Part shown: positions 19,540 to 63,773 of the stretch, in pieces
Layout of the letters: every line of letters starts with the position of its first letter
Numbering within the stretch: position 1 is the first letter of the stretch
Assembly: GCF_047511655.1 (NCBI RefSeq)
Contig: NC_133392.1
Span: 162,244,542 to 162,308,541 of the forward strand
Direction of reading: 5' to 3'
Length of the DNA stretch: 64,000 nt
Origin: Castor canadensis
Lineage: Eukaryota > Chordata > Mammalia > Rodentia > Castoridae
The notes under the pieces: generated by a model
Database searches by the model: none
What the model saw: only the letters and a program-made list of their open reading frames with translations
What the model was told of the DNA's origin: nothing
Translations under genes and position numbers: made by a program

Positions 19540-19625
19540 CTAATTGTCTCCCAGTATGGAAGACATTGCTAGCCTGCTTTCTGCGGAGGAGTTTGTGGAG
19601 AACGTCGTCCCTCTCACCGAGGATG
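19540..19625 (+). CDS. CFAP74: CFAP74 exon 2 (start codon; residues 1-24)
   Basis: The acceptor is tttttacag and the donor gtaata. The ATG at 19556 has A at -3 and G at +4, a strong Kozak context. An in-frame TAA at 19541-19543, inside the exon, rules out an upstream start. The protein begins MEDIASLLSAEEFVENVVPL. A second acceptor (ctcccag, ending 19554) would leave one base before the ATG. The exon ends in phase 1. Confidence 0.88.
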
Positions 19626-43600: not shown

Positions 43601-46600
43601 AGGGGTTGAGATGCTGCCCGTCCCTCAGGGACGCAGCAGGTGCTTGAATGGGGCACTCACCAGATGAGCCCTCAGAATCCATCCTACCTGACCACCTGTG
43701 GCCTTCGGCTTCCAAGGCCAGTCCTCTACCTCGCGACACCCCAGGACTTCCCTCCTTTGTCACCCAGGCCTGTCCTCCAGATCTGAGCCTTCTTCACCCT
43801 CACAGTCCCTGTCTCCCCACTGCAATGGGCTTGTACCTTGATACTTGAGCACCTCAGCTCATGTGGGAGCCTCATGGCTTGTCACACTCTTGGTGTCATC
43901 ATTGTCCTCCTGACTCTCCAGCAGGTCTGTGCCACAGGAATGTTTTCTGTTTCTGTCTGACCTTTTTGTCTCTGGCCCCACAACGGGTTGCATTTTTTGA
44001 CAACCCTGCGGCCTCAGACCTGGTGGCAGGGCGTTTTAAGTGGCCCAAGTCCTGCAGGTTGTGGGAAAAGAAGCATCAGCCCCAACCCCATCTCAATGAC
44101 CCCACCCACCCCCATGGACTGGTGTTCTAGAAAGGGCGGTCACCTGCCCCAGGCTGAGAGTCCTGGCAATCTATGCAGATGTTTGAAGCCTCCACTGGGC
44201 CTGTAGCCCACAACAGTGCCTCCTACCCAGGCGGCTCCACCCTGGGGTGGCCAGGCCTCCCCAGTTCTGGGGCTTGCTGTGCTGAGTTCTCCCTGTAGGC
44301 CATTCACAAATCCCAAGACCTCCACTCATCTCGCCCAGCCTCCCCAGACCCAAGGCGTCAGAGTGTGTGGAGAAAGCAGCAGATGGGGTAGGGGTGAGGG
44401 GGGACAAAGGCCCCTTCTCAGGTCCCTGCAAGAGTTCTGAGCTCCCAGTTCCTCGTTAGCTGTGAAAGTGTCACGCATGTGTGCACACAGTTTCTGTGTA
44501 ATGCGGTGTGTGTAATAAAAAGTTGGGGAGGGAGTGTTTTGGGATTTTGGTTCTGGGCCTTGCATGTGCTAAGTAAGCACTGCACTCCCCCAGCCCAGAG
44601 ATTTTAAGCAACTAAGAGTAATGATAATTATGAAGTTGAATGATGGGTACATGGTGATTTGGCATTGTATTTGGGGGGGCAGTACTGGGGTTTTGACTCA
44701 GGGCCTTGTGCTTGCAAGGCAAGAAGCTACCACTTGAGTCACTCCTCCAGCTCCCTCTGCTTTAAGTTATTTTTCAGACAGCGTCTCTTGCTTTTGCCCA
44801 GGCCAGTGTAGAACCACGCTGCTCCTACTCATGCCCCTGAATAGCTGAGATTACAGGCATGAAGCCTTTTGTTGAGACGGAATGTCACTAACTTTTTGCC
44901 CAGGCTGGCCTTGAACTGAGATCCTCCCTATCTCTGCCTTCCTGAGCACCTGGGATTACAGGCAGGGTCACCACACCAGCTGTATTCAGGTTAATTTTTA
45001 CATTTTTTGAGCATAAAAAGAATTTTTAATGACAATGACATGAAAAGTGCCACAGAACTTGGAACATGGCTTGTTTAGTCATTGCTCTTCCAGTACTTGT
45101 GAGGCAAGTTACAAAAGTCAAGCCACGAAACTGCTGGGCTGTGTTAATACTCGGGCACGGCCTGCAATGCAAAGGAAGCACACGCCGTTGAGTTCACCTG
45201 TCCAAATTCAGCTGTATTTCAGAGCCATTGGCGTGGCCGTTGATGTCCCCGTCTGGGTGCCAAGACCCAACGTGGACCTGAAGATCTGCACCTACGACCG
45301 GCTGTACCAAGACTCCATCCTCGTCCTCACGCGGTGAGCCCCCTGCTGGCCAGCAGGAGCACGGCACTGTGAATGGGCACCTGGGTGACAAAGGGGAGGG
45401 AGGTGAGCCAGGTGTCATTCAGGCACTGCCATGGGGCGGGTCAGGGACAGAGTCAGATTGAAGATGAAGCCAAGGAACGCCAGGACCTCCAGCCCAGCTC
45501 CGTGAAGGGGCAGCTGTCTCCATGAGGGAGAAGGGTGTGGAAGGGAGGGCTATTTGGGGGACCGGGTTGAACAGGGTCCCTGCAGGATGCAAACTGCCTC
45601 TTGGTCGTGTGGCACAGAAGGCAAGAGGGATCCGGGGAAGTGTCACTGTATCGACCCCTCCCCAAAGGACACGTTTGTTTGGTGATTCTTTAATCCAGTA
45701 TCAGTGATTTGTAGCTTTGTTTAATGTGGTAGGTTTTACCTAGCTGGTGTAGGTGGGTAATTCATGAAGACCCCTTCCTGTTTGTGTCCAAGAACCAGCA
45801 CTGGCCAGTGTGGAGAAGCAGTGGAGCCGGCTGGCTGCCACAGTCTCAAGCAGCAGGAGAGCAGGACACGCATTGCAGGGCTTGTCTCTGGGGCTTAGAA
45901 GGGATAAAGCTGAGGTCACCTCGGCTCTGGAGGCCACCTCAGCTCTGGTAGCCTTCCAAAAGGCAAGAGAGAAAAGACAGGCCCGTTCCTCTTGATCCTC
46001 ACTTGTGTACTGCCCAGGGGTCAGCCCAGCTGTGGCTCCCTGGAGAGTCACCGCTTCGCTCAGTGTCTGTGACCTGGCCTTGCCACCTGCACCTCTGGAT
46101 CACTGTGGACCCAGCCCTCAGGGCCATGTCTGAGAAACACCAGGCAGCAGACCCTGAGTGGCCAGACAAGAATCATGCAGAGCATTCTGAAGAGGTGTTG
46201 GAGGGCTGGAGGTGCGGCTCGAGTGGTAGAGCGCCTGCCTCTGAGCTCAAACCCCTGTATCGCCAGGAAAAAAAAAAATTCTGAAGAGGTGCCTGGAGGC
46301 TTAGAAGGCTCTGGAGCCTTTACCTGAGATTCCCAGGCAGACACGAGAGCCTCCCTCTTTAGGCTGCCTTTTCCTTCTTGGGCTGAGATGGTTCCCCCAT
46401 AGAAACTAAAGGAGACACTCACAGGGAGCAAGCAGAGGGTGTCACCCAGAGCTGCCTTAGCAAGGGCTCGGCCACTGTCACTGCCTTCAGCAGAGACCTC
46501 AAGGCAGGCAGGGCCATGAAAGAGCTTCATGGTGGTCACAGGAAGGCCCAGGTGGGCGCTGGTGAGGTGTGGCCTGCAAAGAACTCCAGGTGACTGGCTA

Positions 46601-49600
46601 GAGGCACGCCTGGCTTCCTCTGGCTGCTTCTGAGTTAGGAGCTTGGGTGATTAGCAAGGCCCGGACATCCAAGGCTTCCTGGGTGCCCTGTACAGAGCCC
46701 CGGGACAGAACCCCAAAGGAAGGTAACCAGCCCTCATACTCCCTCCAGGCCCTGCACCCACAGATGCCTGGCTGGAGTTCTTCCCAGAAAACACTGGGGC
46801 CTCTGAGAACTGATTTGGGCCCAAGTTCAGCTGCAATGTATTTTTACTTTCAAGAATTTCTCAGATTTCGTAGGAAGCAGGCTTTGAAGATGCTCTTAAC
46901 CATCCGGGTGCTTGTGCTTGGTGTGGAGTTGGTGTGCACTGAGTGCTGTGGCTGACTCAGTCATCAGACGTACCTTAATGACTCAAGGGATAAAGCACAC
47001 ACAGGCCCTGGCAATCACCTGACCCGGTGCCCGTGATCCGCCCGCAGAGCGAAGGCGGCCCTACGCCTGAAATTTGAGGTCTGCAAGGAGCTGAGAGGCC
47101 ACATGGAGCTCCTGCCTGAGACGGGCTACATCCAGGCCCTGTCGTCCTACTCGGTGCAGCTCAAGTTCTTGCCTCGGTGAGAGCTGGGAAAGGCCTGGGC
47201 TGGCGGGGGCTGGGGAGAGAGCCGACCTCCTGCTGGTCACTCTGGACTGGGCACACATCACAAGGGTGGGCCACCTGCCAGGATAAGATCACCTGGCCTC
47301 CTGTGTGTGGCACCTGCCGTGGCTTCTGCCCAGCCACAGCGGGCAGCTGCTGTCCACATGCGTTTCTCGCAATGTCTCCGACTCCCCAAGCTTCTTGAAG
47401 TTTGTCTTTTGCATCCGTGCCGAGGCTCTTCTACCTATGGGGTCCCTGCATTCTCCTGCTCCAAGGCCCTTCTTGGCCCTCCCTGGTGGACCCTGGGAGT
47501 GGGCACTGTAGGTGTCAGGCTTCCTTGACGTGTCTGTGGGCATTGCTTCCGAATGACTCACTTCAGCTTTGGAAGCCAGAGGTCCTGTTTTTTAATTCTG
47601 CTGCTTGCTGCCTGGAGCAGCCCTTGGCTCCTGTGCTGGGGTCCAGGACCAAGACCACGGGCTGCAGGCTGTGTGGCCCGGGGAAGGGGGTGTGGCAGGC
47701 CAGGCACCAGGGTGAGTGCTGGATTTGCTGTTTGTTAAATAGTCAGAGCTGCAGCCCAGGCTTGCCTCGCCCACTACCCACCGTGGCAAAGTGGGCCTCT
47801 TGTTTCTTATTTGTACTTTTCCTGACATTCCTCTGGGATGCTAATTTCCTTTTTCTCACTATGTAGCCCAGACTGGCCTCAAACTTGTGATCCTCCTGCC
47901 TCAGCCTCCCAAGTGCTGGGATTATAGGCATGTGCTAACATGCCTGGCAAGAGCAACTTTTTTGGGGGGGGGGTTCTGAGAATGGAACCCAGGGCCTTGC
48001 ATATGCCGGGCACAAGCACTACCACTGAGCCTCATTCCCAGTAGTGGGGTTTGAACTCAGGGACTCATGCTTGCTAGGCAGATGCTCTATCACTTGAGCC
48101 ACACCCCCAGCCCTTTTTGCTTTAGTTATTTTTCAGAATAGGGTCATGTGTTTTCCCTGGCTGGCATGGAGCTCTGTCCTCCTACCTATACCTCCCCAGT
48201 AGCTGGGATTACAGATGAGTACCACAACACCTGGCATATTAGTTGAGATAGAATCTTGCTAACTTTTTTCTCCCCAGACTGATCTCAAAACCTGATCCTC
48301 CCAATCTTTGCCTCCTGAGCAGCCAGGATTGTCAAAGGGGCTTTTTAGCATTCCTTTAAGTGACAGCATCCTTATTAATTAAAACACAACTGTTGAATTT
48401 ACTTCTGCTTATTCAAACGCAACCATTCAGAAATATGTCTGGGTCACTTAATCACAGCGCACCTGCCAGTACCACTTGCCCTGGAGTGATTTGCTGCTTG
48501 TAGTGCTAACACATCCAGAGGTCTTAAAATGCACAGGTGCACACATTAGCTGCTGGGTCCACGTGAGAACAGGAGCTTCGGCACCAGGTGAATCTTGAAG
48601 CAAATCCACTCCATCCATTACACAGGTCTTGCGTGATCTAAAAGCACCAAGTGCAGGTCAGTTTTACTGTCACTGTGCAGTCGCTGTACCCTCACCCTGC
48701 CTCTTGCAGACACTCCCTCCCGGAAGATGCGGGGAAGTATTTTGACAAGGAGAGCCGGGTTCTGGAGGCTCCAATGACAATCTGGGTGGCTGACCAGGTC
48801 TGTCCAGGGCCCCTCCCAGGAGGAATAGGAGCAGCTCTGGGGAACAGAGGGCTACTGTGATAGGCCAGGCCCTGCACCCCTGGGAGAGCAAAGCCCTGGT
48901 CCACTTGCCTGCTGGTGGGCTGTCCAGAGGCCTGACAGACACCTTTGCCTGGGCCCCACACAGCCCCTACACAGCTACAAGAAGGGGCCAGAGAGCAACG
49001 TCCACCCCCAGCTGGGCAGGACTATCTCAAGACACCTCACCTGCACACGCACACAGGAAGTGTGCCCACACACTCGGACGAGGACCTATCATACGTGCAC
49101 ACAGTGTGCTCTCCGTGGCGTGGGTGCATATGCACACACATGCACACATGCAATGTACCAGACACACAGCCTCGTGCACTCACACAGTCACACCCGCTGG
49201 GTCCCTCTGCTGCTGCCTGCACCTCCCTCCTCCACCCCACACCCTGGCCCAGGTGCTCACGGCCACAGGGAAGGGCACTGGTGAGAGACTCACTGTAGAA
49301 ACGGTGCGCTGTTGGCCACAGGCAGCAGAATGCCGGTGCGTTTGTTGTTCGGGGGGTCATTGTATAAACACTGCCAGTGTCTGAGAGTGTGCTTGGCCCT
49401 TCGCACCTCAGATCAAACCAGTGGAGTTCACTGTCCAAGCCATTGTCACTACCTCGGACCTGGAAGTCTTCCCCGCAGAGGTGGACTTTGGGTACTGCAC
49501 CATCTACGAGGCCATCAGGACAGAGATCAGCCTCACCAACCACTCGCTCCTGCCCCAGGAGTTTGGGTTTGTTGGACTTCCCAAGGTACCTGCCGTGGTC

Positions 49601-52600
49601 AGGCCCTGGAGAGGAGAGGGAGGTGGGGGACGTAGGGGACATGGTGGACGGGACCACAGCAGCCGCTGCTCCAGGTTTAGGCCCCTGGACACCAGTGGCC
49701 ATCCTGCCCTGCACACCTGGCTGCTGCTGCCTCCCAGCCGTCCCTCTCCTGTCCTGGCTGCCCCCTCTCTCTGGCCCCCCATCTTTCTGGCTTTCTCCCT
49801 CCCTCTGGTGTGGTACACCCACAGAGCTCCAGTCTCTCTCCCTCCCTGCCTTCCAGGACTTTCCTTGCTCAGACCCTCCATGACAGCCTAAGAGGACGCT
49901 CAGGCCTGGTGCCCTCAGCCCACACCAACCCTGGTCCACTCTCCACAAACTCAGCAGCACTGAAGACTCACACTCACAAGCATACACATACCCTCTGGGG
50001 GTTTTTTCAGGGGGAGTGGCTGGTTATTGAGACAGGGGCTTGCTATGTAGCCCAGTAGGGCCTCGAACTCATCACCCTCCTGCCTCCGCCTCCTGAGTGC
50101 TGGGATTACAGGCGTGAACCACCATGCCCAGCTTCACACACACTCATGTGCACACTCCCACCAGCATGTACACTCACACCCGCCCCGCACAGACTCCCCC
50201 ACAGAGCACCAGTTTTACTCTGGCACGGATGTGTTCCAATTTCCCAGTTTGTGGACATCCAGCCCAACGACGGGTTTGGGACGATCATGCCATTGGAGAC
50301 TTTGCAACTCGACCTGCTCTTCCAGCCCACCAAAGCCAAGGAATACAGCTTTGAGCTGATTTGCAAATCTGAGATAAACCGGTGAGCCTGTGGGGCAGAG
50401 GGAATGCATGGCCCCGCTCAGCCTTCCCAGTCCTCCTCACCCGGCTCTCCCTGGACCCCACCAGGCTAATCACAGAGCTGAGCCCCAGACACAGGAGAAC
50501 AGGCCTGCACCCCCGTGGCCTTTCACTGTGGCCCAGCTCACCCTTGTGTGAGAGGAGTGAGAGCAAGCGTGTGGACACGAGTGCAAAGCAGCACGTGGCA
50601 TGGCTTCCGTGGGCAGGTGTGAGTGCATCGCGAACACGTGCACGCGTGCCAGTGTGCACCCACGAACTCGTGGGCATGTGTGTGAGGGAGTTCGCATTTG
50701 AGTGGGCGTGCATGCGTGAGTATGGGTGAGTGTGTGCGTGTGCGAGAGTGCACGTGTGTACAGGTAAGAGTGAGCGTTCTTGTCTGCAGTCTGTGTGAGC
50801 GTGTGTGAGCGTGTGTGCCTCTGATTGTGGGTGGGCGAGAGTGTGAGCGGGTGGTGTGCAAGCCCCTCTGCATACGGCAGGTGCGTGCTGAGCGGGCTCA
50901 GTCTCTCCTCCCTGCAACCGGGGGGCGGGAGTAGGAAAGTAGGGAGAGGGAGAAAAGGTGCTGGGGTCCGGGCCACACGAAGGGCCCGGGGGGGATCAGC
51001 CTGGGGAGGACGTTCTGGGGCGGAGGCCATGAGCTGCTGAGTCAGTTCCCAGAGCACCCCATGCTGTCTCCAGCCAGCTCACCCAGGAGCCTGTCTTTTC
51101 TTTCCACCCTTCCACCAAGCTGCAGAACCATCGGTGAGAATCTGTGTTTCATTGTTAAAAACGATCCACCTGTAAACAGAAGTTACCAAAAGTGAGCCGG
51201 GACCATGTCAGTGTCCTAGGTGGCTTCCCCCGGTCACCTCAGGAAAGAAAGTGTGGGGTGGCCAGGGGCTTGGCGGCCCCACTCAGAGGCAGCCTTGGGT
51301 CCCCCGTCATGGCACTCATAGGTGCAGGTGCGGCACTGAGAGGACCCCTCTCTCCTCCCCACCCGTCCAAAGCTGCCTCCCTGCAGCTCCACCGTTTCCA
51401 GCCAGAACCCTGGATCCCGCCTTGGCTCCTCGTTCTCACACACCCCACAATCTCTCTTTCTTTTTGAGACCGGGTCTTACTCTGTAGCCCAGGCTAGCCT
51501 TGGACTTTCTATCCTCCCGCCTCTACCTCCAGAATGCTGGAATTACAGCCATGTACCACCACAATTGGCTCCTCTCTCTCTCTCTCTTTTAGGGATGGGG
51601 TCATTATATGTAGCCCAGGCTGCCCTTGAACTTGTGATCCTCCTGTCTCAGCTTCCCAAGTTCTGGGATTATAGGTATGCATCACCACATCTGGCTTTAT
51701 TTTCCTTTTCTTTTTTGGTCCTACTGGAGCTTGAACTCGGCCTCACGCTTGCTAAGCAGGTGCTCTACCACTTGAGCCATTCTGCCAGCCCCACGGGTGG
51801 GATTTTCCTGTGTCCCTCTGGCATCAGTGAACACATCCCTCTGCTCAGCGTCATAGATAAATCAGTCACTGGAGCCCCGGCCAGCCAGATTCCAGTTTGA
51901 TTTTCCCAGCAGCTGAGTGGTAGCAGGTCCCTCACCAGGCAGCCGGTGATGCCTGAGCCTCTGTGCTCAAGGCCTAGCTCCACCAGGAGTTGCCAAAAGA
52001 CGCTATTCCAGCTCAAACCCTCCTGCTCCAGGCACTTGCTGGCATATTTCTGCTATTATTCAGTGGCATGCTTCCTAAGCAAAGGAGGTCAAAGACTTGC
52101 TTCTTCCCTCTCACATTTTCTAAGTCAGGAGCTGGTGGGTGCAGTTTGGAGGAGGGTACAATAAGGGACTCATGGATGCAGATGTGTCTGACATGCCCCC
52201 TCGCCATGTCACAGACTTTGTTCCTCTACTGTCCCTTCACCGGTGTGAATGTCGTCCTCCCTTGTGCTCTTTGTCAGCTTTGTGATCTGATCTTTCTCTG
52301 CTGCTCATTTCCATGCCCAGTCATCTCCTCTGGACTCTTAGTGGGGAGCCCAGTTTGGGTAGCCACTCTAACCTGATGGCCCGAGGGCTCTCTTCTGCTT
52401 CTGCATCTCCACCTTCCTTCGCTCTGTGCTTTCTTTGTCCCTCTGCCTTCAGATAACCCGAGAACTCAGATGACCAATGGCATGTACCCCCACCCAAAAT
52501 ACCGTTCACGTTTTTATCATATCTGCCTCAGTTACAGAAGTAAATACTCTACCTGTGGCAAGAATTACCTTTGTTCTTCCTCCTGCCCAAGAGCCAATAC

Positions 52601-55600
52601 TTCCAAGTTCCACTGTCTTTCACTATGCAACTCTGTGCCTGTAAACTACATGCACATATATGCATGTACCCTGTGTGCCAGTGTCACTAAGCTGCTTTTT
52701 CAAGAAGTAGAAAAAGAGCCAGGCGCCAGTGGCTCACACCGGTAATCCTAGCTACTTAGGAGGCTGAGACCGTGAGGGTCGTGGCTCAAGGCCAACCCAG
52801 GCAAATAGTTTGAGAGACTCCATCTCCAAAAATAACCAGAGCAAAATGGACTAGAGGTGTGGCTCATTTGGTAGAGTACCTGCTTTGCAAAGCCCTCAGT
52901 TCAAACCCCAGTCCCATAAGAAAGAAAGGAAGGAAGGAAGGAAGGAGGGAGGGACGGAGGGGGAAGGGGACTGGGGGAAGGGGAGGGAGGGAGGGGGAAG
53001 GAAGGGAGGGAAAGAAGGAAGGAAAGTATAAGACCAGATGTGGTGGCTCACTTCTGTAATTCCAGCTACCTGAGAGATAAAGATCAGGAGGATTTTTGTT
53101 TGAGGCCAGCCCAGGAAAAAAGTAGCAAGACCCCATCTCAACAAATAAACCAGGAGTGGTGGTATACATCTATAATCTCAGCTATATGGGAGGCAGAGGT
53201 AGGAGGATCTTGGTCAGAGGCTGGCCCTGATCAAAAATTCAAGCCCCTATCTGAAAAATAACTAAAGCATAGGAGGTGAATTTGAATATAATATATTTGA
53301 TACATCGTAACAACTTTTGTAAATGTCACAATGTACCCACCCAGCACAACAATAAAGAAAAAGGCAAAAAAAAAGTTCAAGTATAAAGGGCTGATGGCAT
53401 GGCTCAAGTGGTAGAGCACCCGCCTAGCAAGTGCAGGGCTGTGAGTTCAAACGCCAGTACCACCACCACCCCCCAAAAAAAGAAAGAAAAGAATATTTCA
53501 GTATTGAAGACATTTTATTTATAGATGAGTATAATAGACTAATCCACATTAGCCTTTAAAGCATTAAAAATTGATGTAATTAGATGGGCACCAGTGGCTC
53601 ACTCCTGTAATCCTAGCTATTTGGGAGGCTGAGATCAGGAAGATCAAGGTTAGAGGCTGGCTCAGGCAAATGGTTTGCAAGACCCTATCTCCAAAATAAC
53701 CAGAGAAAATGGACTCGCAGGTGTGGTTGAAGCGGTAGAGCGCCTGCTTTGCAAGAACAAACCCCTGAGTTCAAACCCTCTCTGTCCCACAAAAAAAAAA
53801 AAAAAAAAAAAAAAGAAGGCTGAGGTGCAGCTCAACGAGAGTGCTTGCCCAGCAGGCATGAGGCCTAGCACTGCAGGTAAACGTTGATGGGGAAAAGGCG
53901 ATGAGTGTGAGCTCAAGGAAAACGTGGAATGTGAAATTTTCAAACATCTCTTTTCTTAATGTTTGGTGATGGGGAATCAATTCACCATGGTGTATAGAAA
54001 TCCCTGCTTACATTTCAAGAGTGACTTACCAGTTTTAGCTTTTAAATGTCAATAAGCATGCAACATAAGGCAGGAATTACTTCCTTTGCAACTGCTGAAG
54101 CTTCAGGATCAAGTGTTAGTTACCCACCAGATGTTAACAGGGCAGCAAACGACTGTGACAAATGCAAGAATGAGTCCTGGATACCAACCCCCCCCCAGGC
54201 CACCTGTCTGTGGGCACCGGCGTCCAACACATGGGGAGCTGTGTCTCCCCCGTCCCCTGCTCAGGGTCACAGAGGGACCACAGATGCCCCTTCATATCTG
54301 AGCACCTTCCCCTGCCACTGGTCTCTTCCAGGTGCTTCAAGATATCTTGCCGAGCCGTGGGTGTCCATCCACCCCTGGAGCTGTCCCACTACCAGATCAA
54401 GTTTGCAGCCACTGCACTGTATGACACCTCAGTGGCCACGGTATACGTCATCAACTCCCACCTGAGCATGAACAAGCTGACTCACTCCCTGCCCCGCATC
54501 GGCTCCGAGGAAGCCTCCCCAGTGGGACCAACGTCTTTTGAGTTCCTGCTGCCCCCCAACTCACCCATCACCATCTCACCCTCGGTGGGGACCGTGTTGC
54601 CAGGAAAGGTGAGCATAGGCTTCACTGGCAAGCAGGGAGGCAGGGGCTCCAGGCTACCATGCCTTACTCTCGGGGTGCCTGGCTCTGCCACATGGGGAGT
54701 AGGAAGAGGTCCTGCCTGACCCAAGGGGCAGGGAGCATCTGACAGATGGCCCAGAGGCACCCGCCTGGGGCTGGAGCAAGGGCAAACTCTGGGATCTCAC
54801 AGCAGACAGGGTACAGGGAGTGCAGGACTGTGGCCCCTTTCCATCCAGTGTCCTGCCTGGCCTCCGGCAGGGTTTCAAAAAATACAATTAATGAAATGTG
54901 TTTCATTACAAATACCACTTAAGTACTGGTTCTGTCTCCAGTGGACTATCACAGATGCTAGCTTGCTCCACCCACTTTTCTCTCTCCACCTCCCCCCTTC
55001 TTTCTGTCCCCTCTCTCTCCCTCTTTCCTTCTCTTCCCCCCTTCTCCCTCCCTTCTTCTCCTTCTCCACCATCATGTCACCCCCTACACTTACAATGAAC
55101 TGAACCACTGTGGAATCTGTCATGGAGACATCTTTCCATGAGGACTTGCAGATGGGGAACAGGTTTCCCCTTATTGCTGGGCCATCAGGCAGTGGGTGAG
55201 GTCCTAACCCATCCAGAACTCTGTTCTCAACACTTTCCATCATGGACCTCACCCCATTCTGCCCGCTCCAGCTGCTTGGGGCATTGCCTGGGAAGCCCTT
55301 TTGGGAGGGGCCCATCTAGACCAGAATCTCAAAAAGGTGACCTGAGGGGATCCAGGCTGGGATGCAGAGGAGCGAGTTCTGAGTAGTGGGCAGTGCAGCA
55401 GTAGGGCCTCCTATGCCCTCTGGGCTTCTGGGAGGGAAGGTGGCAGCTCTGTGTCTCCCCGCAGAGGTGCCTGGTCCAGGTGGCCTTCAGGCCTGTGCTA
55501 CCCCACAAGCTGATCATCGAGGAAGCCATGCAAATACTGAACAAGGAAATGGAGACCAAGCCAGTGCGTGGAGTGTCAAGGGCAGGTGTATGGTGCCTTA

Positions 55601-58600
55601 GGATGGGGGGGGCACAGGCCTCTGGCGCCTTGGATTGCAGAAGGTCCCAGGAACAGGTGTATGGGGAGCAAGGTGCATCAAGCTATGTCCAAGAGGGAAA
55701 AGGTTTTCTTGCAGGAGCCTCCACTCCCTGAAAGCACCACCAGGTGGCAGAGCCAGAGCTGAGATCCCCAAGAGAGGCTGGGACTGTGACCAAGGCAGGA
55801 CTGAGACCTGCCCAGCCTCTCGAAGTCACCTGGGGAAGGCCCTGGCAGTGGCAGGCATCCTGCCCACAGGCTCTGTCCAACACCATGTGCTTCCGTGTAC
55901 ACTGTGCCAACCCCCAGAGCTGTGTGTGGTCACTCACTTGCACAATTTTTTTTTTTTTGGTGGTGGTACTAGGGTTTGAACTCAGAGCTTCATGCTTGCT
56001 AGGCAGGTGCTTTACCACTTGAGCCACGCCCCCAGCCCTTCTTTTGCTTTAGTTATTTTTCAGATAGGGTCTCATGTTTTTACCAGAGCCAGCCTCAGAA
56101 TGCAATCCTTGTACCTATGCTCTCTGCATAGATGGGGTCTTAGGCACATGTCACCATGCCTGGCTTGTTGACTGAGGTGGGGTTTGCTGACTTTTTGCTG
56201 GGGCTGGCTTCAAATCCCCCATCTCCACCTCCTGAGTAGCTGATATTAAGGTATATGCTACCACACACGACCACAAAAGTGAAGAGCACTGGCCTTCTAC
56301 TCACCAGAGAGGCAGCGAGGTGTCGGGGAAAGGGGACCCCAGTTCTGCGGGCTCATTGCCCCCATTCTCCCAGCTTCCCCACTGCAGACATTGCAGTCAG
56401 TGAGCAGCTTCAGGGGTCTCTGCACTGGTACCTCATGCATCCCCTGAACACTCACCTTTCTCCACTGCTTAATACTGTGGTACCTGTCAGTCTTTCCTAA
56501 GGGCACAGTGGATTTGGGGTCCCATTCAGTCCAAAACTGAACCTTTGGCTCCCACAGCTCTGGTCAGCCCAGGTCTTCTGGGGGGGATAGTGTAGTGCCT
56601 CCTGGGCAGAGGGCAGAGCCCCTGGGGCAGCCCCACAGCCACTGCTACCCCACAGTTCCGAAAAGACACAACCACTCAAAGGAAGGAGCTGTGGAAGCAG
56701 TCCCTGTCTGCGATGCGCACGCAACCCCGGGATCGAATACTCCGGGTGTCCACACCCCATGTCCCAGAGGTGAAGAAGCAGGAGCTCGATGCCAGGTGGG
56801 CTGGGGGGACCCGCCCCACCTCTCCCCATCTGGCCTCATGGAGGCTTTCCCCACAAATGGCCTGGAGCACAGCTGCACCGACTTATGTGGCTAGAGGTCC
56901 AGGGCCGACTGGGTTTCAGACAGCTGGATCCAGATGCTCCCTTCTGGGCATCTGTCCACCCGTTCCCCTAAGCCTGCCCTCTCCCTGAGCAGACTTCAGC
57001 CTTCTTAGTGTGCAGGTGAGCTCAGGAAAAGCCCCAATGGCTTAGGCCACTTGCCCCTAGTAAGGTGCCAAAGCCACCGGCTCCCTCGTGGCTGACCAGA
57101 ACCCAGGAGTGATGGAGAATGTCCCCACAGAAGCCACTGAGAAAGCTGCATTGCCATACAGAGCTGGGAAAGCCTCCTCCTGGGGCCCACCTGGTCCCTG
57201 GCTGCTGCCTCTTCCTTACCCCTTCGTCTCCCCAGAAAGGCTACTCAGCCAGGACCCTAGGGAGTAGATGTGGCCTCATGGACCCCTTCTGTCTGGGAGT
57301 CGCTGATCCTATGCTGAGGAGCACAGGGGCAGAGCCTGTGGTTGAGGGGATCAGGGACATGAATGTATCTTGATGACTTCATTCCAGTTCTAACCAGTAC
57401 CAGATCGCCCAGGCCAAACTGACCAGAACTTTCCAGGCAACGTTTGACAAGTTTGTGGTTCCCTGTGTTGTTGCTAGTGGTGATGTCAAAGACAGGAAGG
57501 CACTGGAACCTCTAAACTTCAGGTGTGAGATGCTGGGGACAGGATGGGGCGTGATTGGCCACAAACTGACTGCCCCTCCTCTGCTACTGACCAAATCTGA
57601 GGTCCGGGTGGGCACAGGGCCACCCCGCTCTGCCCTCAGCATGCCCTTGTCCCTCCCCAGCCCCCACAACACCCTGTACCTGGAGCTGTGGTGTCCAACG
57701 GTGGCTCCAGCTATTGTGGTGACATCCGGCAAAGGCAAGACGGTCTTCGACTTTGGGGATATCGCCGTAGGTGTGTCCTGACTGGACCCTGACACCCCCC
57801 ATGAACCCCTCACCTCAGGGATCCATCCTCACCATAGGAAGAGGTGCTCCTTAGAGCCTCGGGTTGGGCCTGTGACCTAACACTCTCTGACCCTTTGTTT
57901 TAGGACACCGCGGGATAAAGAAGGTAACCCTCCAGAATATCTCCTCTGAGGACCTTGCCGTATCCTTGTCCACACAGGCACAGGCAACTTGCAGGGGGCA
58001 GGATGGGGCCTGTGGCAGAGCCCACAGAGGCCATGTCTCACTCCTTGACACTGAACCCTCAGATGGAGTTCTCAGTGCTGAACCCCAATGGCCCCTTTGT
58101 CCTGCTGAACCCCTCCCCCAAACTGCGCTCGGGTGAGACTTATAACCTAGTGCTGTCCTTCTCGCCCCAAGAGAGCATCCTGGTGAGTACCAGGCCCGGG
58201 GGAGGCTGTAGCCCTGGGCCCCACACACTTCAGGAACACATCGTGGCTGCAGACAAACACAGGCCCAGAACTGACCAAGCCAGGGTCTGCAAGTGGCTGG
58301 CCGTCCTAGCCATGCTCTGGCTGGCAAGTCAGAGGAGGCAGAGGGCTGTAGGGACTCCAGGCTGTCTCACCAGCATGTGCCCGAGCCAGACGCTCAGGAA
58401 CAGAGTGCCCCACGTGCCTGACGGACGTCTGATCCTTGCTAAGAGACATGGTCTCCTTAGGCTCAAGAAACACTGGACATCATCACCAAGAGAGGCTCCC
58501 TCACCCTCACCTTCATGGGAACTGGTGTGGCATCCATGATCACATGCTCCATTGAAGGTGACGTCCTCAACATGGGCTACGTGCTTGCCAGAGAGTCACT

Positions 58601-61262
58601 CTCCTCAAGCTTCAAGGTGCAGTGTGTCCTCTGGAAGAGAGGGAGGCTGCCCCCACCCCTAGTCCACTGTCCTGTTCAGTGCCCCTGTCCTTCTGCCTCA
58701 GGGCCTTTGCATAGGGCCCCCTTTCACCCCTCTCCTGCTTTGCTACTTGAATACTTGCCCCATCGGAGCTCAACTCAGACAGCTGGGGTGAGAGTTTGCA
58801 GACATCCAGAAAGAAGCCATGCTGCCCTGTGGACTTCCTCACCTGTGTATGAGGGCAGGCCTGGCTCAGGTGCCCTTCCTCTAAGGAATGCCCCAGCCTT
58901 GGGCCCAAGCAGCCTACAGAACACCTGCCTGCCCGCCTGCTCAGGCGGGGTCCTGGAAGCAGAGCCCAAAACTGGGACTATATAGGTTGGGGTGCTCTCT
59001 GGAGAGGGGACTGAGGGCAAGAAAGAGGCTGGGGTAAGGATGTGGGTTGGGTTCCACTAAGGGGAGCTCCGAAGAATAGATGGCATCACAGACCTGGCCA
59101 CCAGGCTGAAAAGGACCAACAGGAGATGGATGAGCCAGAGTGGGTATGGCAGTCCAAATCTCTGCTGTGAGGGTCAACATGGTCACTGCTGGGGACACTA
59201 CCAGGTGGGGCTTGGAGTTATATTGCCACCTGGTCCCCATATTGCCACCTGAACTCAGTGGCAGGTGACCAAGTCCTGGGCACTGACCACAGGCAGAGGG
59301 CAGCCTGGGGTGTGCTGGAGTGTGATGTCCTGTTCTTGGTAGCTGCAGAACGACTCCTCGCTCCCCATCAAGTTCTGGGTGAAGCTGGAGAGCCTTTCTA
59401 GCAGCAGGGTGGAGGCCCGACAGCAGCTTCCAAAGTTCCTGGATTCATCAGCCCAGAGGACAGAAGTTGTGGGTGAGCTGGCAGAACTGCCTAGAAAGGG
59501 GGATGCTGGGAGTGGTGCAGGACAGTGAGGGATGGGGCCGGACAGGCTGTGGAGAGGCTGGGCAAAGAGGGTGCAGAGGGTTGTGCTGGCCGGGCAGGAG
59601 AGTGGCATAATTCCCAGCTCGGTGGAGCAGGGCTAGGGGACAGAGGGGCTGTCAGCTACCACAGTTGCCCTGCCCACAGGCACGCAGAACCACAATGGCC
59701 AGAGTGTGTTCAGCGTCACACCTGTGGAGGGCCTCATGTTCCCCGGGAAGGCACAGGACTTCACCGTGACCTTCAGCCCCGACCACGAGAGCCTATACTT
59801 CTCGGACCAGCTCCAAGTGGTGCTCTTTGAAAAGGTGCAGCTGGAGACCTGGCCTGGCCCCATGGACCCCATCCCACCTAGGAAGGCACCCGTTGTATAT
59901 CCCCTCCCTGCCACTTCAGAGGCCTTGATCACCTGGTGGCTCTGTGGGTACCACGTTAGAGATGTCAAGCAGAGACCAGCATCCGTAATCCTATGGTGCC
60001 CCACCCTAAGATAGGCTCGGACCCCAGTCGTAGAGCCGCAGGGACAGGCTGCTGTGCTCTTGTCCCCAGAAAATCTCCCACCAGATCCTCCTGCGGGGTG
60101 CAGCACGAGAGCACATGATGTTCGTGGAGGGTGGGGACCCACTGGATGTGCCTGTGGAGTCGCTGACCGAGATTTCCGCCTTGGACCCCGAGCATAGAGA
60201 AGGTGGGAACTGTGGCACTGGGGGAGGGGAGGCAGAGACAACCTCAGGGAGTCAAAGAGGACCAGCCAGCAACCCCAGCCAGCAAGTGGATGCACTGTGG
60301 CCAGGGAGGAGGACAGGGATTCCCAACCCATCACCCCCAGAGTCAGACAGGGTAGGCACTTCTGGCCAGAATGCTTAAGAAAATTAAACCCCACCCCACC
60401 CCTTGCTCTACCCAACCTTGGACAACTCCCCTCCCTGCCCAAGCTACATCCCTCCACACAGCCAGCCCCCAGGGAGGCCCTCCCTCTCCAGAAGCTGAGG
60501 AACCAAAGCCCATCTTGGTGACCCTGGACTACGTTCAGTTTGACTCAGACACACCAGCCCCACCTGCCACTCGTGAGCTGCAGGTGGGCTGTATCCGGAC
60601 CACCCAGCCATCTGCAAAGAAGGTGACCACAGCACTACTCCAAGTGGTACCCTGGAAGCCTCTCTGGCCTCTCCTGGACTTGCCCCTCCGTGGGCTTGCC
60701 TAGGACTTCCTATGGCAGGAGTGGGATGGGCAGTGGGATGGGCAGCCCCTGATTAGAGTGGAGGGGTGGGTGGAGTGGGGCATCCTCACCCCCAGCCCAG
60801 CCCAGCCCACTGCCTCCTGGGAGTGCCTGGCCACCAGCCTTCAGCAGTGCAATGCCTCACAGACCGTTGAGTTCAGCCTGGACAGCATCACTTTGCTGCA
60901 GCACAAGGGTTTCTCCATCGAGCCCACCAGAGGCTCTGTGGAGCGAGGCCAGACCAAGACCATCAGCATCTCCTGGATGCCGCCCACTGACTTTGATGTA
61001 GGTGCAGGGGGGACCCCAGGCTGGGCTTGTGACACCCCTGCCCCACCGCAGGGAAGGGTGGCCATGGAGCCTGTAGGGCAGGGTAGTGAGAAAGACCATG
61101 GCTCTGCCCCGGGAGCCTGCCGACTGAGGGTCCCCCTTCTCCCACCTGCTCCTGCCCCAGCCGGACCATCCACTCATGGTGTCAGCTCTGCTGCAGGTCA
61201 GGGGAGACGTAAAAGAGACCTACAAGATCATCTTTGTAGCCCGTGTGGTGACTGGTCCCTAG
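19556..61262 (+). CDS. CFAP74: CFAP74 coding region (38 coding exons, spliced)
   Basis: CFAP74 is a structural protein of motile cilia and sperm flagella. Its algal counterpart FAP74 belongs to the C1d projection of the central-pair apparatus with FAP46, FAP54 and FAP221. Human variants are linked to ciliary dyskinesia and sperm-flagellum defects (from memory). Joining exons 2-39 listed below gives one open frame of about 1,633 codons ending in TAG at 61260-61262. Residues about 50-410 are rich in Glu, Lys, Arg and Gln and look coiled-coil. From about residue 460 onward there are repeated MSP/ASH-like beta-sandwich segments, for example 'FDVGKVYKKKVTLIN', 'LINFGSYTVGETTSQTITL' and 'VDFGYCTIYEAIRTEISL'. 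There is no signal peptide or membrane segment. TMEM52 follows about 2.4 kb downstream on the same strand, as in human. Exon borders are my inference from phase and consensus; transcript data could shift a few. Confidence 0.93.
20680..20875 (-). repeat. B1-ID dimeric SINE
   Basis: A shortened ID half (GGGGCTTGAACTCAGGGCC) and a B1 half (TGAGTAGCTAGGATTACAGG) end 35 bp before exon 3. Confidence 0.85.
20911..20992 (+). CDS. CFAP74: CFAP74 exon 3 (residues 24-51)
   Basis: The acceptor is ttctag and the donor gtaatt, with phase 1 in and phase 2 out. The product is strongly acidic (many Glu and Asp), typical of a disordered N-terminal tail. The next intron is only 140 bp. Confidence 0.85.
21133..21279 (+). 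CDS. CFAP74: CFAP74 exon 4 (residues 51-100), coiled coil begins
   Basis: The acceptor ttccaag is chosen over the nearby ctcag because only it restores the frame after exon 3; the other hits TGA within nine codons. The peptide includes VKEQRAHAEKMKK and a heptad-like leucine pattern (LSHLQKSLDLLDQIHEEKD). Donor gtgagc. Confidence 0.87.
22227..22298 (+). CDS. CFAP74: CFAP74 exon 5 (residues 100-124)
   Basis: The acceptor is tcacag and the donor gtaggt, phase 2 to phase 2. It encodes MDLLSKQQESVTAEMAAERE, a charged coiled-coil segment. Confidence 0.9.
23186..23290 (+). CDS. CFAP74: CFAP74 exon 6 (residues 124-159)
   Basis: The acceptor is gctccag and the donor a perfect gtaagt. The exon encodes a coiled-coil segment containing LHIELENERDLQSKITTTL. 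It is followed by a 4.0 kb SINE-rich intron. Confidence 0.92.
23655..23965 (-). repeat. Long ID plus double-B1 SINE
   Basis: An ID half is followed by two B1-like passages (CATAGCTGGGATCCCAGATG and GAGTAGCTGGGTTTACAGGT), so the unit is trimeric in appearance. Confidence 0.8.
24655..24765 (+). repeat. B1 monomer
   Basis: 'GTGCCTGTAATCCCAGCACT' and 'GGCCAACCTGGGCAACATAC' mark a B1/7SL-type element. Confidence 0.8.
25695..26065 (-). repeat. ID plus double-B1 SINE
   Basis: Same trimeric arrangement as the element near 23.7 kb, with B1 passages at about 25885-25930 and 26000-26060. An L1-like A/T stretch follows to about 26100. Confidence 0.75.
26440..26730 (+). repeat. B1-ID dimeric SINE
   Basis: The B1 half (CACACCTGTAATCCTAGCTA), a B1-like middle and the ID half (GTGGCAGAGCACCTGCCTAG) end in AAAAAAGAAAAAG. 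Confidence 0.8.
27340..27513 (+). CDS. CFAP74: CFAP74 exon 7 (residues 159-217)
   Basis: The acceptor is tttgcaag and the donor gtaagt, phase 2 to phase 2. The product is highly charged coiled coil with MEKRQFEDVRKYNQEEAEA and a tri-glutamate run. Confidence 0.92.
28393..28503 (+). CDS. CFAP74: CFAP74 exon 8 (residues 217-254)
   Basis: The acceptor is ctgctgcag and the donor gtgcgt. It encodes THMQKELGLRHQKLVEDAQK and continues the coiled coil. Confidence 0.92.
28895..28997 (+). CDS. CFAP74: CFAP74 exon 9 (residues 254-288)
   Basis: The acceptor is ctctccag and the donor gtaggc. The exon encodes an Arg/Glu-rich helix (REREQKEEMESREQMKRRM). Phase changes here from 2 to 0. Confidence 0.93.
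29613..29770 (+). CDS. CFAP74: CFAP74 exon 10 (residues 289-341)
   Basis: The acceptor is cttcctag and the donor gtgagg. It encodes ETLRKFQAWGQARAAVAEQK and then an Arg/Gln-rich helix. Confidence 0.93.
30645..30800. repeat. (TGAG)n-type microsatellite
   Basis: Imperfect GTGA/TGAG tetramer array with variants such as TGAATGAG; its cleanest run (GAGTGAGTGAGTGAGTGAGT) is near 30772-30790. It lies in intron 10. Confidence 0.9.
31067..31268 (+). CDS. CFAP74: CFAP74 exon 11 (residues 341-408), GC donor
   Basis: The acceptor is cccccag. The exon closes the coiled coil with a basic/acidic stretch (EEEQKLRRQEIVSKILKEE) and then a linker containing TWSYISDFCEG. The exon ends CAG|gcaagc. Only this GC donor leaves phase 0, which exon 12 needs. 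The nearby GT alternatives (gtgagg inside the exon, gtggga about 30 bp downstream) shift the frame into early stops. Confidence 0.88.
32130..32210 (+). repeat. 5'-truncated ID-like SINE
   Basis: Only the B-box side (GAGTTCAAACCCCAGTCCCA) and an A17 tail remain. Confidence 0.7.
32434..32589 (+). CDS. CFAP74: CFAP74 exon 12 (residues 409-460)
   Basis: The acceptor is gcccacag and the donor gtgaca. The exon is symmetric at phase 0. It encodes a low-complexity acidic linker with several Trp and Tyr (WSEDYKQYQ) between the coiled coil and the first beta-sandwich region. Confidence 0.9.
33604..33777 (+). CDS. CFAP74: CFAP74 exon 13 (residues 461-518)
   Basis: The acceptor is aacctaag and the donor gtgagc, symmetric at phase 0. 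It encodes MDKDILARTVEQLRSGVVHK followed by REFKGRPFNSKPELIHFK, which leads into the first ASH-like domain. Confidence 0.94.
34234..34352 (+). CDS. CFAP74: CFAP74 exon 14 (residues 519-558), ASH-like domain
   Basis: The acceptor is cttctccag and the donor gtgagg. DFDVGKVYKKKVTLINATYT is the classic opening of an MSP/ASH beta-sandwich: an FxVG turn followed by a 'xVxLxNxT' strand. Confidence 0.95.
34735..34830 (-). repeat. B1 monomer
   Basis: 'CAGGGTCTTGCTATGTAGCC' and 'GCCTCAGCCTCCTGAGTGCC' identify a reverse B1. Confidence 0.8.
35400..35985. repeat. Possible LINE-like relic
   Basis: T-rich text around 35690-35880 (for example 'TTATGTCTTTAACCATTTTA') has the feel of an old L1 3' region, but I cannot match it firmly. 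It lies in intron 14. Confidence 0.3.
36175..36260 (-). repeat. ID-like SINE
   Basis: Clean reverse tRNA-like unit (TTTTGAACTCAGGACCTTCA, CACTTGAGCCATGCCACC) in intron 14. Confidence 0.85.
36610..36676 (+). CDS. CFAP74: CFAP74 exon 15 (residues 558-580)
   Basis: The acceptor is gctgacag and the donor gtaagt. PPGRMSAGMSCEVLVTFKPM is the 'xGxSxxVxVxFxP' strand typical of ASH domains. Confidence 0.94.
36988..37077 (+). CDS. CFAP74: CFAP74 exon 16 (residues 581-610)
   Basis: The acceptor is tttttag and the donor gtaagt. It encodes LEGNVSFLAQTGGFAIPLKC, the last strands of the first ASH-like domain. Confidence 0.94.
37470..37605 (-). repeat. ID-B1 SINE, left arm of inverted pair
   Basis: A deleted dimer (ID part fused directly to the B1 part). 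Its B1 portion pairs with the next element. Confidence 0.85.
37625..37835 (+). repeat. B1-ID SINE, right arm of inverted pair
   Basis: The B1 half, the link 'ATCTCGAAAAAACCCTTC' and an ID half end in A16. It faces the preceding SINE head to head. Confidence 0.88.
38148..38312 (+). CDS. CFAP74: CFAP74 exon 17 (residues 611-665), ASH-like domain
   Basis: The acceptor is tttgacag and the donor gtgagt, symmetric at phase 0. It encodes INFGSYTVGETTSQTITLTN, a second domain opening with the FGxxxVG pattern, and ends in an acidic stretch. Confidence 0.95.
39342..39474 (+). CDS. CFAP74: CFAP74 exon 18 (residues 666-710)
   Basis: The acceptor is cttccag and the donor gtgagg. The product is acidic and Ser-rich, a loop or linker (SLFTSDDKSVYDKVLASF). 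Phase 0 in, phase 1 out. Confidence 0.88.
39745..39875 (-). repeat. B1-like monomer
   Basis: 'TCAGCCTCCCAAGTAGCTAG' and 'GATTACAGGCATGAGCC' lie in intron 18. Confidence 0.75.
40215..40390 (+). repeat. B1-ID SINE, internally scrambled
   Basis: A B1 half, a C-rich break (CACCCCCCCCACCCCCCAC) and part of a second B1-like unit (GGCCGGGTGCAGTGG). Confidence 0.7.
40477..40553 (+). CDS. CFAP74: CFAP74 exon 19 (residues 710-735)
   Basis: The acceptor is tcttccag and the donor gtcagt. It encodes a short linker (AIPMTSNMALPSSDQQGEV). Phase fits both neighbours, but the sequence is low in recognisable structure, so confidence is lower. Confidence 0.8.
41084..41206 (+). CDS. CFAP74: CFAP74 exon 20 (residues 736-776)
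   Basis: The acceptor is ctacgcag and the donor gtgagt. IGPFSSIKVHIIFSPVIPGA is an ASH-like strand pair, and the exon ends FKVMFRNPQCPT. Confidence 0.93.
41440..41525 (-). repeat. ID SINE
   Basis: Reverse ID unit (TTGAACCCAGGGCCTTTCTC) whose CCAGCCC end is duplicated three times. Confidence 0.8.
41980..42070 (-). repeat. B1 fragment
   Basis: 'CTCAACCTCCCAGGTGCTGG' and the ending 'CACGCCTGGCT' identify it. Confidence 0.6.
42670..42860 (+). repeat. B1-ID dimeric SINE
   Basis: The B1 half (GGCTCACGCCTGTAATCCCA) and a shortened ID half end in ACCAAAAAG. Confidence 0.8.
43081..43215. repeat. 9-bp-period minisatellite in intron 20
   Basis: About 15 imperfect 9-bp units such as GTTCCCATG, GGACCCACA-like GCACCCACA, GTCCCCACG and GTACCCATA alternate, so an 18-bp higher period is also visible. 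The array keeps all frames partly open and creates Gly/Val/Thr or Pro/Val tripeptide repeats that are not real proteins. Confidence 0.85.
44530..44990 (-). repeat. ID fragment and ID plus double-B1 SINE
   Basis: A short ID remnant (44540-44605) is followed by a trimeric unit (44675-44985) with B1 passages ending 'GATTACAGGCATGAAG' and 'GGGATTACAGGCAGGGTC'. Confidence 0.75.
45212..45333 (+). CDS. CFAP74: CFAP74 exon 21 (residues 777-817)
   Basis: The acceptor aaattcag is chosen because the stronger-looking atttcag 11 bp downstream breaks the frame. The peptide LYFRAIGVAVDVPVWVPRPN completes the preceding beta sandwich, followed by VDLKICTYDRLYQDS. Donor gtgagc. Confidence 0.91.
46200..46280 (+). 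repeat. ID-like SINE
   Basis: A recent-looking unit (GGCTCGAGTGGTAGAGCGCC) with A11 tail. Just after it, TTCTGAAGAGGTG repeats the ATTCTGAAGAGGTG found just before it: a clear target-site duplication (46183-46196 and 46279-46291). Confidence 0.88.
47048..47176 (+). CDS. CFAP74: CFAP74 exon 22 (residues 817-860)
   Basis: The acceptor is cccgcag and the donor gtgaga. ALRLKFEVCKELRGHMELLP and then YSVQLKFLPR read as Ig-like strands. Confidence 0.94.
47840..48335 (-). repeat. B1, ID and ID plus double-B1 SINE cluster
   Basis: A B1 (47850-47955), an ID unit (about 47965-48035, after a G-run) and a trimeric unit (48038-48335) abut one another in intron 22. Confidence 0.75.
48710..48797 (+). CDS. 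CFAP74: CFAP74 exon 23 (residues 860-889)
   Basis: The acceptor is ctcttgcag and the donor gtctgt. It encodes DAGKYFDKESRVLEAPMTIW. Phase 2 in, phase 0 out. Confidence 0.92.
49040..49200. repeat. CA-rich simple sequence
   Basis: Interrupted CACACA/CACACG runs in intron 23, not a clean microsatellite. Confidence 0.6.
49412..49585 (+). CDS. CFAP74: CFAP74 exon 24 (residues 890-947), ASH-like domain
   Basis: The acceptor is cacctcag and the donor gtacct, symmetric at phase 0. It encodes VEFTVQAIVTTSDLEVFPAE and then VDFGYCTIYEAIRTEISLTN, a clear domain start. Confidence 0.95.
50010..50145 (-). repeat. B1 monomer
   Basis: 'CTTGCTATGTAGCCCAGTAG' and 'GAGTGCTGGGATTACAGGCG' lie about 100 bp before exon 25. 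Confidence 0.85.
50248..50381 (+). CDS. CFAP74: CFAP74 exon 25 (residues 948-992)
   Basis: The acceptor is tttcccag and the donor gtgagc. FVDIQPNDGFGTIMPLETLQ and LDLLFQPTKAKEYSFEL form the middle and end of an ASH-like domain. A 3.95 kb repeat-filled intron follows. Confidence 0.95.
50560..50840. repeat. Degenerate TG/CG-rich simple sequence
   Basis: A long alternating purine-pyrimidine tract (GTGTGCGTGTGCGAGAGTGC and similar) in intron 25. Such DNA favours Z-form structure. Confidence 0.65.
51455..51795 (-). repeat. Two B1 monomers and an ID SINE
   Basis: B1 copies at 51460-51570 and 51580-51700 are separated by a CTCTCT run, followed by an ID-like unit (51705-51795). Confidence 0.85.
52715..52925 (+). 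repeat. B1-ID dimeric SINE
   Basis: The B1 half (GCGCCAGTGGCTCACACCGG) and the ID half (GTGGCTCATTTGGTAGAGTA) lead into the purine tract. Confidence 0.85.
52918..53028. repeat. Polypurine (GGAA/GGGA)n tract
   Basis: An almost pure A/G stretch of about 110 bp made of GAAGG, GGAGG and GGGGAAGG units, grown from the poly(A) tail of the preceding SINE. Confidence 0.9.
53030..53480 (+). repeat. B1-rich SINE, A/T spacer and ID-like SINE
   Basis: Two B1-like passages (TAATTCCAGCTACCTGAGAG and 'ATAATCTCAGCTATATGGG') and, after an A/T-rich spacer, an ID unit (53390-53465) with ACCACCACC tail. Confidence 0.75.
53580..53870 (+). repeat. B1-ID SINE with A24 tail and appended ID fragment
   Basis: The B1 half (GGCACCAGTGGCTCACTCCT), the ID half, an A-run of about 24 and then a second, truncated ID unit (GAGAGTGCTTGCCCAGCAGG). 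Confidence 0.8.
54332..54608 (+). CDS. CFAP74: CFAP74 exon 26 (residues 992-1084), largest coding exon
   Basis: The acceptor is tcttccag and the donor gtgagc. It encodes LSHYQIKFAATALYDTSVAT followed by VYVINSHLSMNKLTHSLPRI, then a Pro/Ser loop ending ISPSVGTVLPGK. It spans the end of one beta sandwich and most of the next. Confidence 0.95.
54975..55070. repeat. Polypyrimidine tract in intron 26
   Basis: An irregular C/T run of about 95 bp (CTCTCTCCCTCTTTCCTTCT and similar). Confidence 0.8.
55465..55563 (+). CDS. CFAP74: CFAP74 exon 27 (residues 1085-1117), weak donor
   Basis: The acceptor is ccccgcag. It encodes CLVQVAFRPVLPHKLIIEEA and then MQILNKEMETKP. The donor AAGCCA|gtgcgt has A instead of G at -1, but it is the GT in this stretch that yields phase 0, as exon 28 needs. 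The alternative gtgtat (exon ending GCAG) gives phase 1 and garbles exon 28. Confidence 0.82.
55945..56270 (-). repeat. ID plus double-B1 SINE
   Basis: A clear ID half (GGGTTTGAACTCAGAGCTTC, CACTTGAGCCACGCCCCC) is followed by two diverged B1 passages in intron 27. Confidence 0.8.
56656..56795 (+). CDS. CFAP74: CFAP74 exon 28 (residues 1118-1164)
   Basis: The acceptor is accccacag and the donor gtgggc. The product is basic (FRKDTTTQRKELWKQSLSAM, then RDRILRVSTPHV), likely a helical insert between beta sandwiches. Confidence 0.9.
57388..57522 (+). CDS. CFAP74: CFAP74 exon 29 (residues 1164-1209)
   Basis: The acceptor is cattccag and the donor gtgtga. It encodes NQYQIAQAKLTRTFQATFDK, then VVPCVVASGDV. 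A 138 bp intron follows. Confidence 0.92.
57661..57770 (+). CDS. CFAP74: CFAP74 exon 30 (residues 1209-1246), ASH-like domain
   Basis: The acceptor is ctccccag and the donor gtgtgt. LYLELWCPTVAPAIVVTSGK and then TVFDFGDIAVG end one sandwich and open the next. A 133 bp intron follows. Confidence 0.94.
57904..57959 (+). CDS. CFAP74: CFAP74 exon 31 (residues 1246-1264), donor of U12 intron
   Basis: The acceptor is tgttttag. It encodes HRGIKKVTLQNISSEDLA, the N-xS strand of the ASH fold. The donor is GCC|gtatcctt, the minor-spliceosome consensus rather than the major one. The exon exits in phase 0. Confidence 0.92.
57960..58062 (+). other. CFAP74: U12-type (minor spliceosome) GT-AG intron 31
   Basis: The 103 bp intron opens with GTATCCTT, matching the U12 5' splice-site consensus RTATCCTT exactly. 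It contains TCCTTGAC at 58042-58049, matching the U12 branch-site core TCCTTRAC. The branch adenosine (58048) is 14 nt from the end of the terminal AG, in the usual U12 window. It lacks a polypyrimidine tract, as expected. Phase and protein continuity on both sides confirm these borders. Confidence 0.85.
58063..58182 (+). CDS. CFAP74: CFAP74 exon 32 (residues 1265-1304)
   Basis: The acceptor accctcag belongs to the U12-type intron. MEFSVLNPNGPFVLLNPSPK and then ETYNLVLSFSPQES give the central strands of an ASH-like domain. Donor gtgagt. Confidence 0.95.
58461..58616 (+). CDS. CFAP74: CFAP74 exon 33 (residues 1305-1356)
   Basis: The acceptor is tctccttag and the donor gtgcag, symmetric at phase 0. 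It encodes ITKRGSLTLTFMGTGVASMI (the 'xLxGxG' end strand of an ASH domain), then the start of the next domain. Confidence 0.95.
59343..59472 (+). CDS. CFAP74: CFAP74 exon 34 (residues 1357-1400)
   Basis: The acceptor is cttggtag and the donor gtgagc. It encodes LQNDSSLPIKFWVKLESLSS, then a Ser/Arg/Gln linker. Phase 0 in, phase 1 out. Confidence 0.94.
59680..59834 (+). CDS. CFAP74: CFAP74 exon 35 (residues 1400-1451)
   Basis: The acceptor is gcccacag and the donor gtgcag. FSVTPVEGLMFPGKAQDFTV and then TFSPDHESLYFSDQLQVVLF form a near-complete ASH signature. Confidence 0.96.
60070..60202 (+). CDS. CFAP74: CFAP74 exon 36 (residues 1452-1496)
   Basis: The acceptor is gtccccag and the donor gtggga. 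It encodes ISHQILLRGAAREHMMFVEG, closing the previous sandwich, then an acidic loop. Confidence 0.93.
60462..60622 (+). CDS. CFAP74: CFAP74 exon 37 (residues 1496-1549)
   Basis: The acceptor is ccacacag and the donor gtgacc. A Pro-rich linker is followed by ILVTLDYVQFDSDTPAPPAT and RELQVGCIRTTQPSAKK. Confidence 0.92.
60845..60997 (+). CDS. CFAP74: CFAP74 exon 38 (residues 1550-1600)
   Basis: It encodes VEFSLDSITLLQHKGFSIEP and then GSVERGQTKTISISWMPP, the last full ASH-like domain. Donor gtaggt. Three in-frame acceptors compete: ttcag (exon from 60845), the adjacent cag (60848) and cctcacag (60863). The last would remove six residues and start the exon at TVEFSL. The true start is undecided. 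Confidence 0.88.
61161..61262 (+). CDS. CFAP74: CFAP74 exon 39, C-terminus (residues 1601-1633, stop)
   Basis: The acceptor is ctgccccag. It encodes PDHPLMVSALLQVRGDVKET and YKIIFVARVVTGP, then TAG, a final beta strand with a short tail. Confidence 0.95.
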   Translation, partial: PDHPLMVSALLQVRGDVKETYKIIFVARVVTGP

Positions 61263-63440: not shown

Positions 63441-63660
63441 ACCCTGACCGGAGACCCTAAGCGCCCAAGTCGCTGCGAGGCCCGGCCCTGGGCGGGGCGG
63501 GCAGAGGGAACCGGACAGCCGGGCCGTAAGGGGCGGGGCTCACCCGGAGCGAAGCATTCTAAGGGCAGAGAGACCGTGGGCGTGGCGTGGGGGCGTGGTT
63601 AATTTGGGCGTGGCCTCACGGTGATTGGTTTCACCCCTATGGTGGGCGGGGCAGTGCTTC

Positions 63661-63666
63661 ATAAAA
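63661..63666 (+). promoter_or_regulatory. TMEM52: TATA-like element of TMEM52
   Basis: CATAAAAGC lies within the GC-rich promoter. With normal TATA spacing, transcription would start near 63690, leaving a 5' leader of only about 20 bp. Confidence 0.5.
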
Positions 63667-63707
63667 GCGCTTGCTTGCTGGGCTGCACTCCGCTGTCCCC
63701 GCCGAAC

Positions 63708-63773
63708 ATGGCTGCGGGGCCGCGGGCCGCCTATGGGCTCCTCCTACTGCTGCCGCTTCTGCCGCTGTCACAG
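63708..63773 (+). CDS. TMEM52: TMEM52 exon 1 (signal-like N-terminus)
   Basis: TMEM52 is a small single-pass membrane protein of poorly known function. The ATG sits in a strong context (AACATGG). The 22 codons begin MAAGPRAAYG and continue with a hydrophobic Leu-rich run (residues 11-19), as in a signal peptide. Donor gtgggt. Recognition rests on similarity to the remembered human N-terminus (Leu/Pro-rich, then QVALG and DxSCDPS) and on synteny. Confidence 0.85.

Follow-up and report, generated by a model that had tools for sequence, protein, structure and literature searches.

The 103-nt intron at positions 57960 to 58062 of the beaver (Castor canadensis) stretch analysed here interrupts CFAP74 and is almost certainly a GT-AG intron of the U12 (minor) type. 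This assignment, advanced by a sequence-only reading, is supported by exact U12-type motifs, by borders that are fixed by the protein and by splice-site scores that set the intron apart from the other 36 coding introns of the gene. The class to which it belongs is well known and the mechanism is not new. Minor-spliceosome disease and the genes of motile cilia are each the subject of current study, and the CFAP74 intron provides a concrete candidate to look for in retention data. All coordinates refer to the window, the whole stretch of 64,000 nucleotides that was analysed.

Gene model and borders of the intron

The identity of the gene, proposed previously as CFAP74, is borne out over the whole length of the protein. 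Protein-to-DNA mapping placed 1635 of the 1636 residues of the NCBI Castor canadensis protein P0001 exactly on the window, in 38 coding exons, the sole unmapped residue being located at an exon junction; by sequence comparison, the mouse CFAP74 chain 9ijj_C also matches the CFAP74 of the window. The features around the intron are the following.

19556..61259, + strand: CFAP74 coding region, 38 coding exons, mapped from NCBI Castor canadensis protein P0001
57904..57959, + strand: coding exon 30, 56 nt, with a U2-type acceptor on its left and, as assigned here, a U12-type donor on its right
57960..58062, + strand: coding intron 30, GT-AG, 103 nt, phase 0, assigned to the U12 type
58063..58182, + strand: coding exon 31, 120 nt

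The intron had been numbered 31. It exists as described, but it is the 30th of the 37 coding introns, and the number 31 would apply only if a non-coding first exon precedes them. It is also the shortest of the set, the other 36 all measuring at least 133 nt. Elsewhere in the gene, coding intron 10 (31269-32433) has GC-AG ends.

Joining exons 30 and 31 in frame yields SSEDLA/MEFSVLNPNG (the slash marks the junction), and the same peptide is present in P0001. The earlier argument that the passage from EDLA into MEFSVLNPNG fixes the borders therefore holds, with mouse 9ijj_C also running through this point without a gap. Two protein searches, of which 120 of 500 and 120 of 384 above-threshold matches were listed, gave 140 distinct homologues, and the EDLA/MEFSV junction is gapless in 138 of these 140 among the matches listed; the list contains many isoforms and closely related sequences, and its named entries are all from mammals, so the 138 cannot be taken as that many independent species. 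When both borders were shifted jointly by up to 60 nt, one alternative pair appeared (AT..AC at -21), and there was no second GT-AG or GC-AG pair within that range. An exact pattern search of the beaver genome located the opening 25 bases of the intron at a single place, in this window. A folding-energy comparison of the intron RNA gave an unremarkable z-score of -0.17.

Two further observations concern the remainder of the window. Four Rfam tRNA matches on the - strand (4257-4329, 16735-16806, 19235-19299 and 55961-56033) are probably repeats of tRNA origin, not tRNA genes. Another gene starts at 63400-64000 on the + strand, with a reading frame that begins MAAGPRAAYGLLLLLPLLPLSQ; by gene order, it is probably TMEM52.

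Splice-site signals and intron class

57924..57929, + strand: possible cryptic U2-type donor GTAACC in exon 30 (AAG/GTAACC)
57960..57967, + strand: U12-type 5' splice site GTATCCTT, exact RTATCCTT
58042..58049, + strand: U12-type branch site TCCTTGAC, exact TCCTTRAC; the last base of the intron lies 14 nt downstream of the branch A at 58048
58061..58062, + strand: 3' splice site AG

Both motifs were recovered, without mismatch, where they had been reported, as was the spacing of 14 nt between the branch adenosine and the end of the intron. This distance is short; it falls near, and just outside, the branch-to-3' optimum of 11-13 nt given for U12-type introns in PMC3584512. The intron is in phase 0, which is less common among minor introns, at approximately 22% on average (PMC10639083).

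Splice-site scores were compared over the 37 CFAP74 coding introns. With the rough matrices used, intron 30 has a U12 donor score of 13.8 (the other 36 introns reach at most -5.0) and a branch-site score of 12.5 (the others at most 10.0, this maximum belonging to intron 1, whose U12 donor score is -16.5). The same rough matrices give it the lowest U2 donor score of the 37, -7.8 against at least -0.3 for the other 36, and also the lowest U2 acceptor score, -3.2 against at least -1.6. Thus, on both the U1-fitting donor and the tract-bearing acceptor expected of a U2-type intron, intron 30 ranks last in its gene, and the earlier judgement that its donor would suit U1 poorly agrees with these values. 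The accompanying statement that a polypyrimidine tract is absent carries less weight: although the acceptor score is the lowest of the set, pyrimidine runs near the 3' end reach a length of 6, which is also the median value for the other 36 introns, and a missing tract is therefore weak evidence.

Either motif by itself is as frequent in 64 kb as expected by chance, with two occurrences of RTATCCTT in the window (shuffle mean 1.73) and five of TCCTTRAC (shuffle mean 5.13). The strict pair, no more than 150 nt apart and with the AG in place, occurs once in the window; of 300 simulated windows, 0.7% contain it, a frequency that leaves exon borders out of account, as do those that follow. Relaxing the spacing to 500 nt or 5000 nt raises this proportion to 2.3% and 22%, respectively, and a loose branch site together with a donor within 150 nt is found in 9% of simulated windows. 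The second RTATCCTT of the window (10231, ATATCCTT) was rejected as a U12 donor: the only branch-site match that accompanies it is a loose one at a distance of 1.2 kb, and loose matches within 5000 nt are at chance level (mean of 3.55 per simulated window).

Protein models with extra residues at the junction

Inserts located exactly at the EDLA/MEFSV junction are present in two of the 140 protein models among the matches listed, one from otter and one from bank vole. The otter (Lutra lutra) CFAP74 model P0053 has 36 extra residues at 1309-1344, equivalent to 108 nt. The insert starts with ISL, which is compatible with ATATCCTT and incompatible with a GT start. Near its end, VLDTGPQ is compatible with GTCCTTGAC; there TCCTTGAC fits with its adenosine 13 nt from the end, the single placement that TCCTTRAC can take in the insert. 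The background consisted of 13,787 stop-free 108-mers from the gene region, which overlap and so are not independent; the donor was matched by 23 of them and the branch site by 67, but no 108-mer matched both. Compared with the beaver intron, the whole insert scores above 300/300 real-sequence controls and 300/300 shuffles, its 3' end above 2000/2000 of each, and its 5' end above 1999/2000 of each. A protein search with the insert and short flanks (57 residues) returned no match beyond the otter protein itself.

The bank vole (Myodes glareolus) model P0038 contains 18 extra residues after EDLA, the first four of which, VSLS, are those that the beaver intron would encode. The resemblance of VSLS to the beaver intron was equalled by none of 2000 real-sequence controls and by 8 of 2000 shuffles. 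This start is also compatible with a U2-type donor, and the vole insert consequently weighs less than that of the otter.

Taken at the level of predicted proteins, P0053 appears to translate an entire 108-nt minor intron, and the additional residues of P0038 probably come from annotation of the opening 54 nt of the intron as coding sequence. Both inserts look like the product of gene models in which a minor intron was left unspliced; on that view, the U12 signals would be common to a rodent and a carnivore and are probably older than the split between them. Conservation of the U12 class thereby gains indirect support from the otter model and weaker, partial support from that of the vole. In general, read-through gene models preserve minor-intron sequence as protein and offer a cheap source of comparative evidence.

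The ends of the otter intron, known from the protein model only, would be AT-AG if its last codon is CAG. It would then share its ends with the AT-AG U12 introns, a disfavoured combination (PMC3584512), whereas the beaver intron is GT-AG. A gene predictor that disallows AT-AG ends would read on, which may account for the read-through; the insert could instead reflect an assembly error. It is conceivable, at somewhat less than even odds, that a recent change of the first base from G to A gave the otter a disfavoured and poorly spliced AT-AG U12 intron whose 108 nt stay open in frame. Were this subtype switch real, a read-through product with 36 extra residues would be expected, and in one lineage a gene of motile cilia and sperm would contain a naturally occurring minor intron that may be leaky.

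That the two inserts represent genuine coding additions or faults of assembly, and are uninformative about the intron, is improbable. They belong to predicted proteins, they are confined to those two of the 140 models among the matches listed, and a second vole model, P0032, is without an insert. Against this, both begin exactly at the junction, and the otter sequence outscored every one of its 300 real-sequence controls and 300 shuffles in the whole-insert comparison. Less probable still is that intron 30 is a U2-type intron removed by the major spliceosome and that its U12 motifs are fortuitous. Its GT-AG ends, a pyrimidine run that matches the median length in the gene and the chance-level frequency of the single motifs in 64 kb would all suit such an intron. 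Its U2 donor and acceptor scores, however, are the lowest of the 37, and an in-frame GC at 57984 or GT at 57924 outscores the true donor under the U2 matrices; the plain junction is nonetheless the one found in P0001 and in 138 of the 140 homologues among the matches listed. The otter insert, moreover, is incompatible with a GT start and agrees with the U12 signals. The assignment of intron 30 to the minor class is thus the preferred reading.

Predicted splicing, its failure and known minor introns

Donor and branch sites of this kind are recognized by U11 and U12, after which U6atac takes over. Transferring these established roles to intron 30, U11 would recognize the donor GTATCCTT and U12 would pair with the branch site TCCTTGAC; U6atac would then displace U11, and the intron would be excised at the AG that ends 14 nt downstream of the branch adenosine, joining EDLA to MEFSV. 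Exon definition has been found to need contact between both machines when an exon carries mixed U2 and U12 sites (PMC8034651). Exon 30, with a U2-type site on its left and a U12-type donor on its right, should therefore require contact of the two spliceosomes.

58134..58136, + strand: first stop on retention of intron 30, predicted from sequence

Retention of the 103-nt intron is predicted to shift the frame and to reach this stop, and skipping of exon 30 (56 nt) or of exons 30 and 31 together (176 nt) would likewise break the frame. If the minor spliceosome fails, the cryptic GT at 57924 could be used with the normal acceptor, at the cost of 12 residues in frame; use of the GC at 57984 as donor would add eight residues in frame. 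Degradation of mis-spliced transcripts is not to be assumed, since exon-skipped transcripts with early stops escaped decay in PMC8034651.

A further proposal, compatible with the U12-type assignment, is that the intron serves as a brake as well, being removed slowly enough to limit CFAP74 mRNA and so to couple motile cilia to minor-spliceosome activity. Limiting U6atac suppresses many genes with minor introns (PMC3728624), retained minor introns are shorter (PMC6717393) and intron 30 measures just 103 nt, its retention would shift the frame, and loss of ZCRB1 mis-splices ciliary genes (PMC13216214). CFAP74, however, has no occurrence in the main text of this last paper, and we regard such a role as unlikely, if less so than the alternatives weighed above. 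The gene itself has been tied to primary ciliary dyskinesia and sperm-tail defects (by the title of a reference in PMC12703936), zebrafish in which it is knocked down show effects on cilia and left-right patterning (PMC9749982), and in pigs one of its missense variants shows linkage to a marker for sperm traits (PMC12703936). Among the papers listed by literature searches, none was found to link CFAP74 or KIAA1751 to a U12-type intron or CFAP74 to the minor spliceosome, or to treat minor introns together with CFAP genes and the axoneme; the human or mouse intron may well appear in supplementary tables or intron databases.

Among known systems, the closest are the GT-AG U12-type introns, with which intron 30 shares the RTATCCTT donor, the TCCTTRAC near the 3' AG, weak U2-type sites and its position as the lone such intron among many of the U2 type. 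The mechanism would be the same, the differences being the 14-nt distance, against the optimum of 11-13 nt (PMC3584512), and the phase 0. The minor introns of IFT88, IFT74 and IFT80 (PMC13216214) likewise reside in cilia genes; CFAP74, in contrast to these, encodes a protein of the central apparatus (PMC12297659) rather than of intraflagellar transport.
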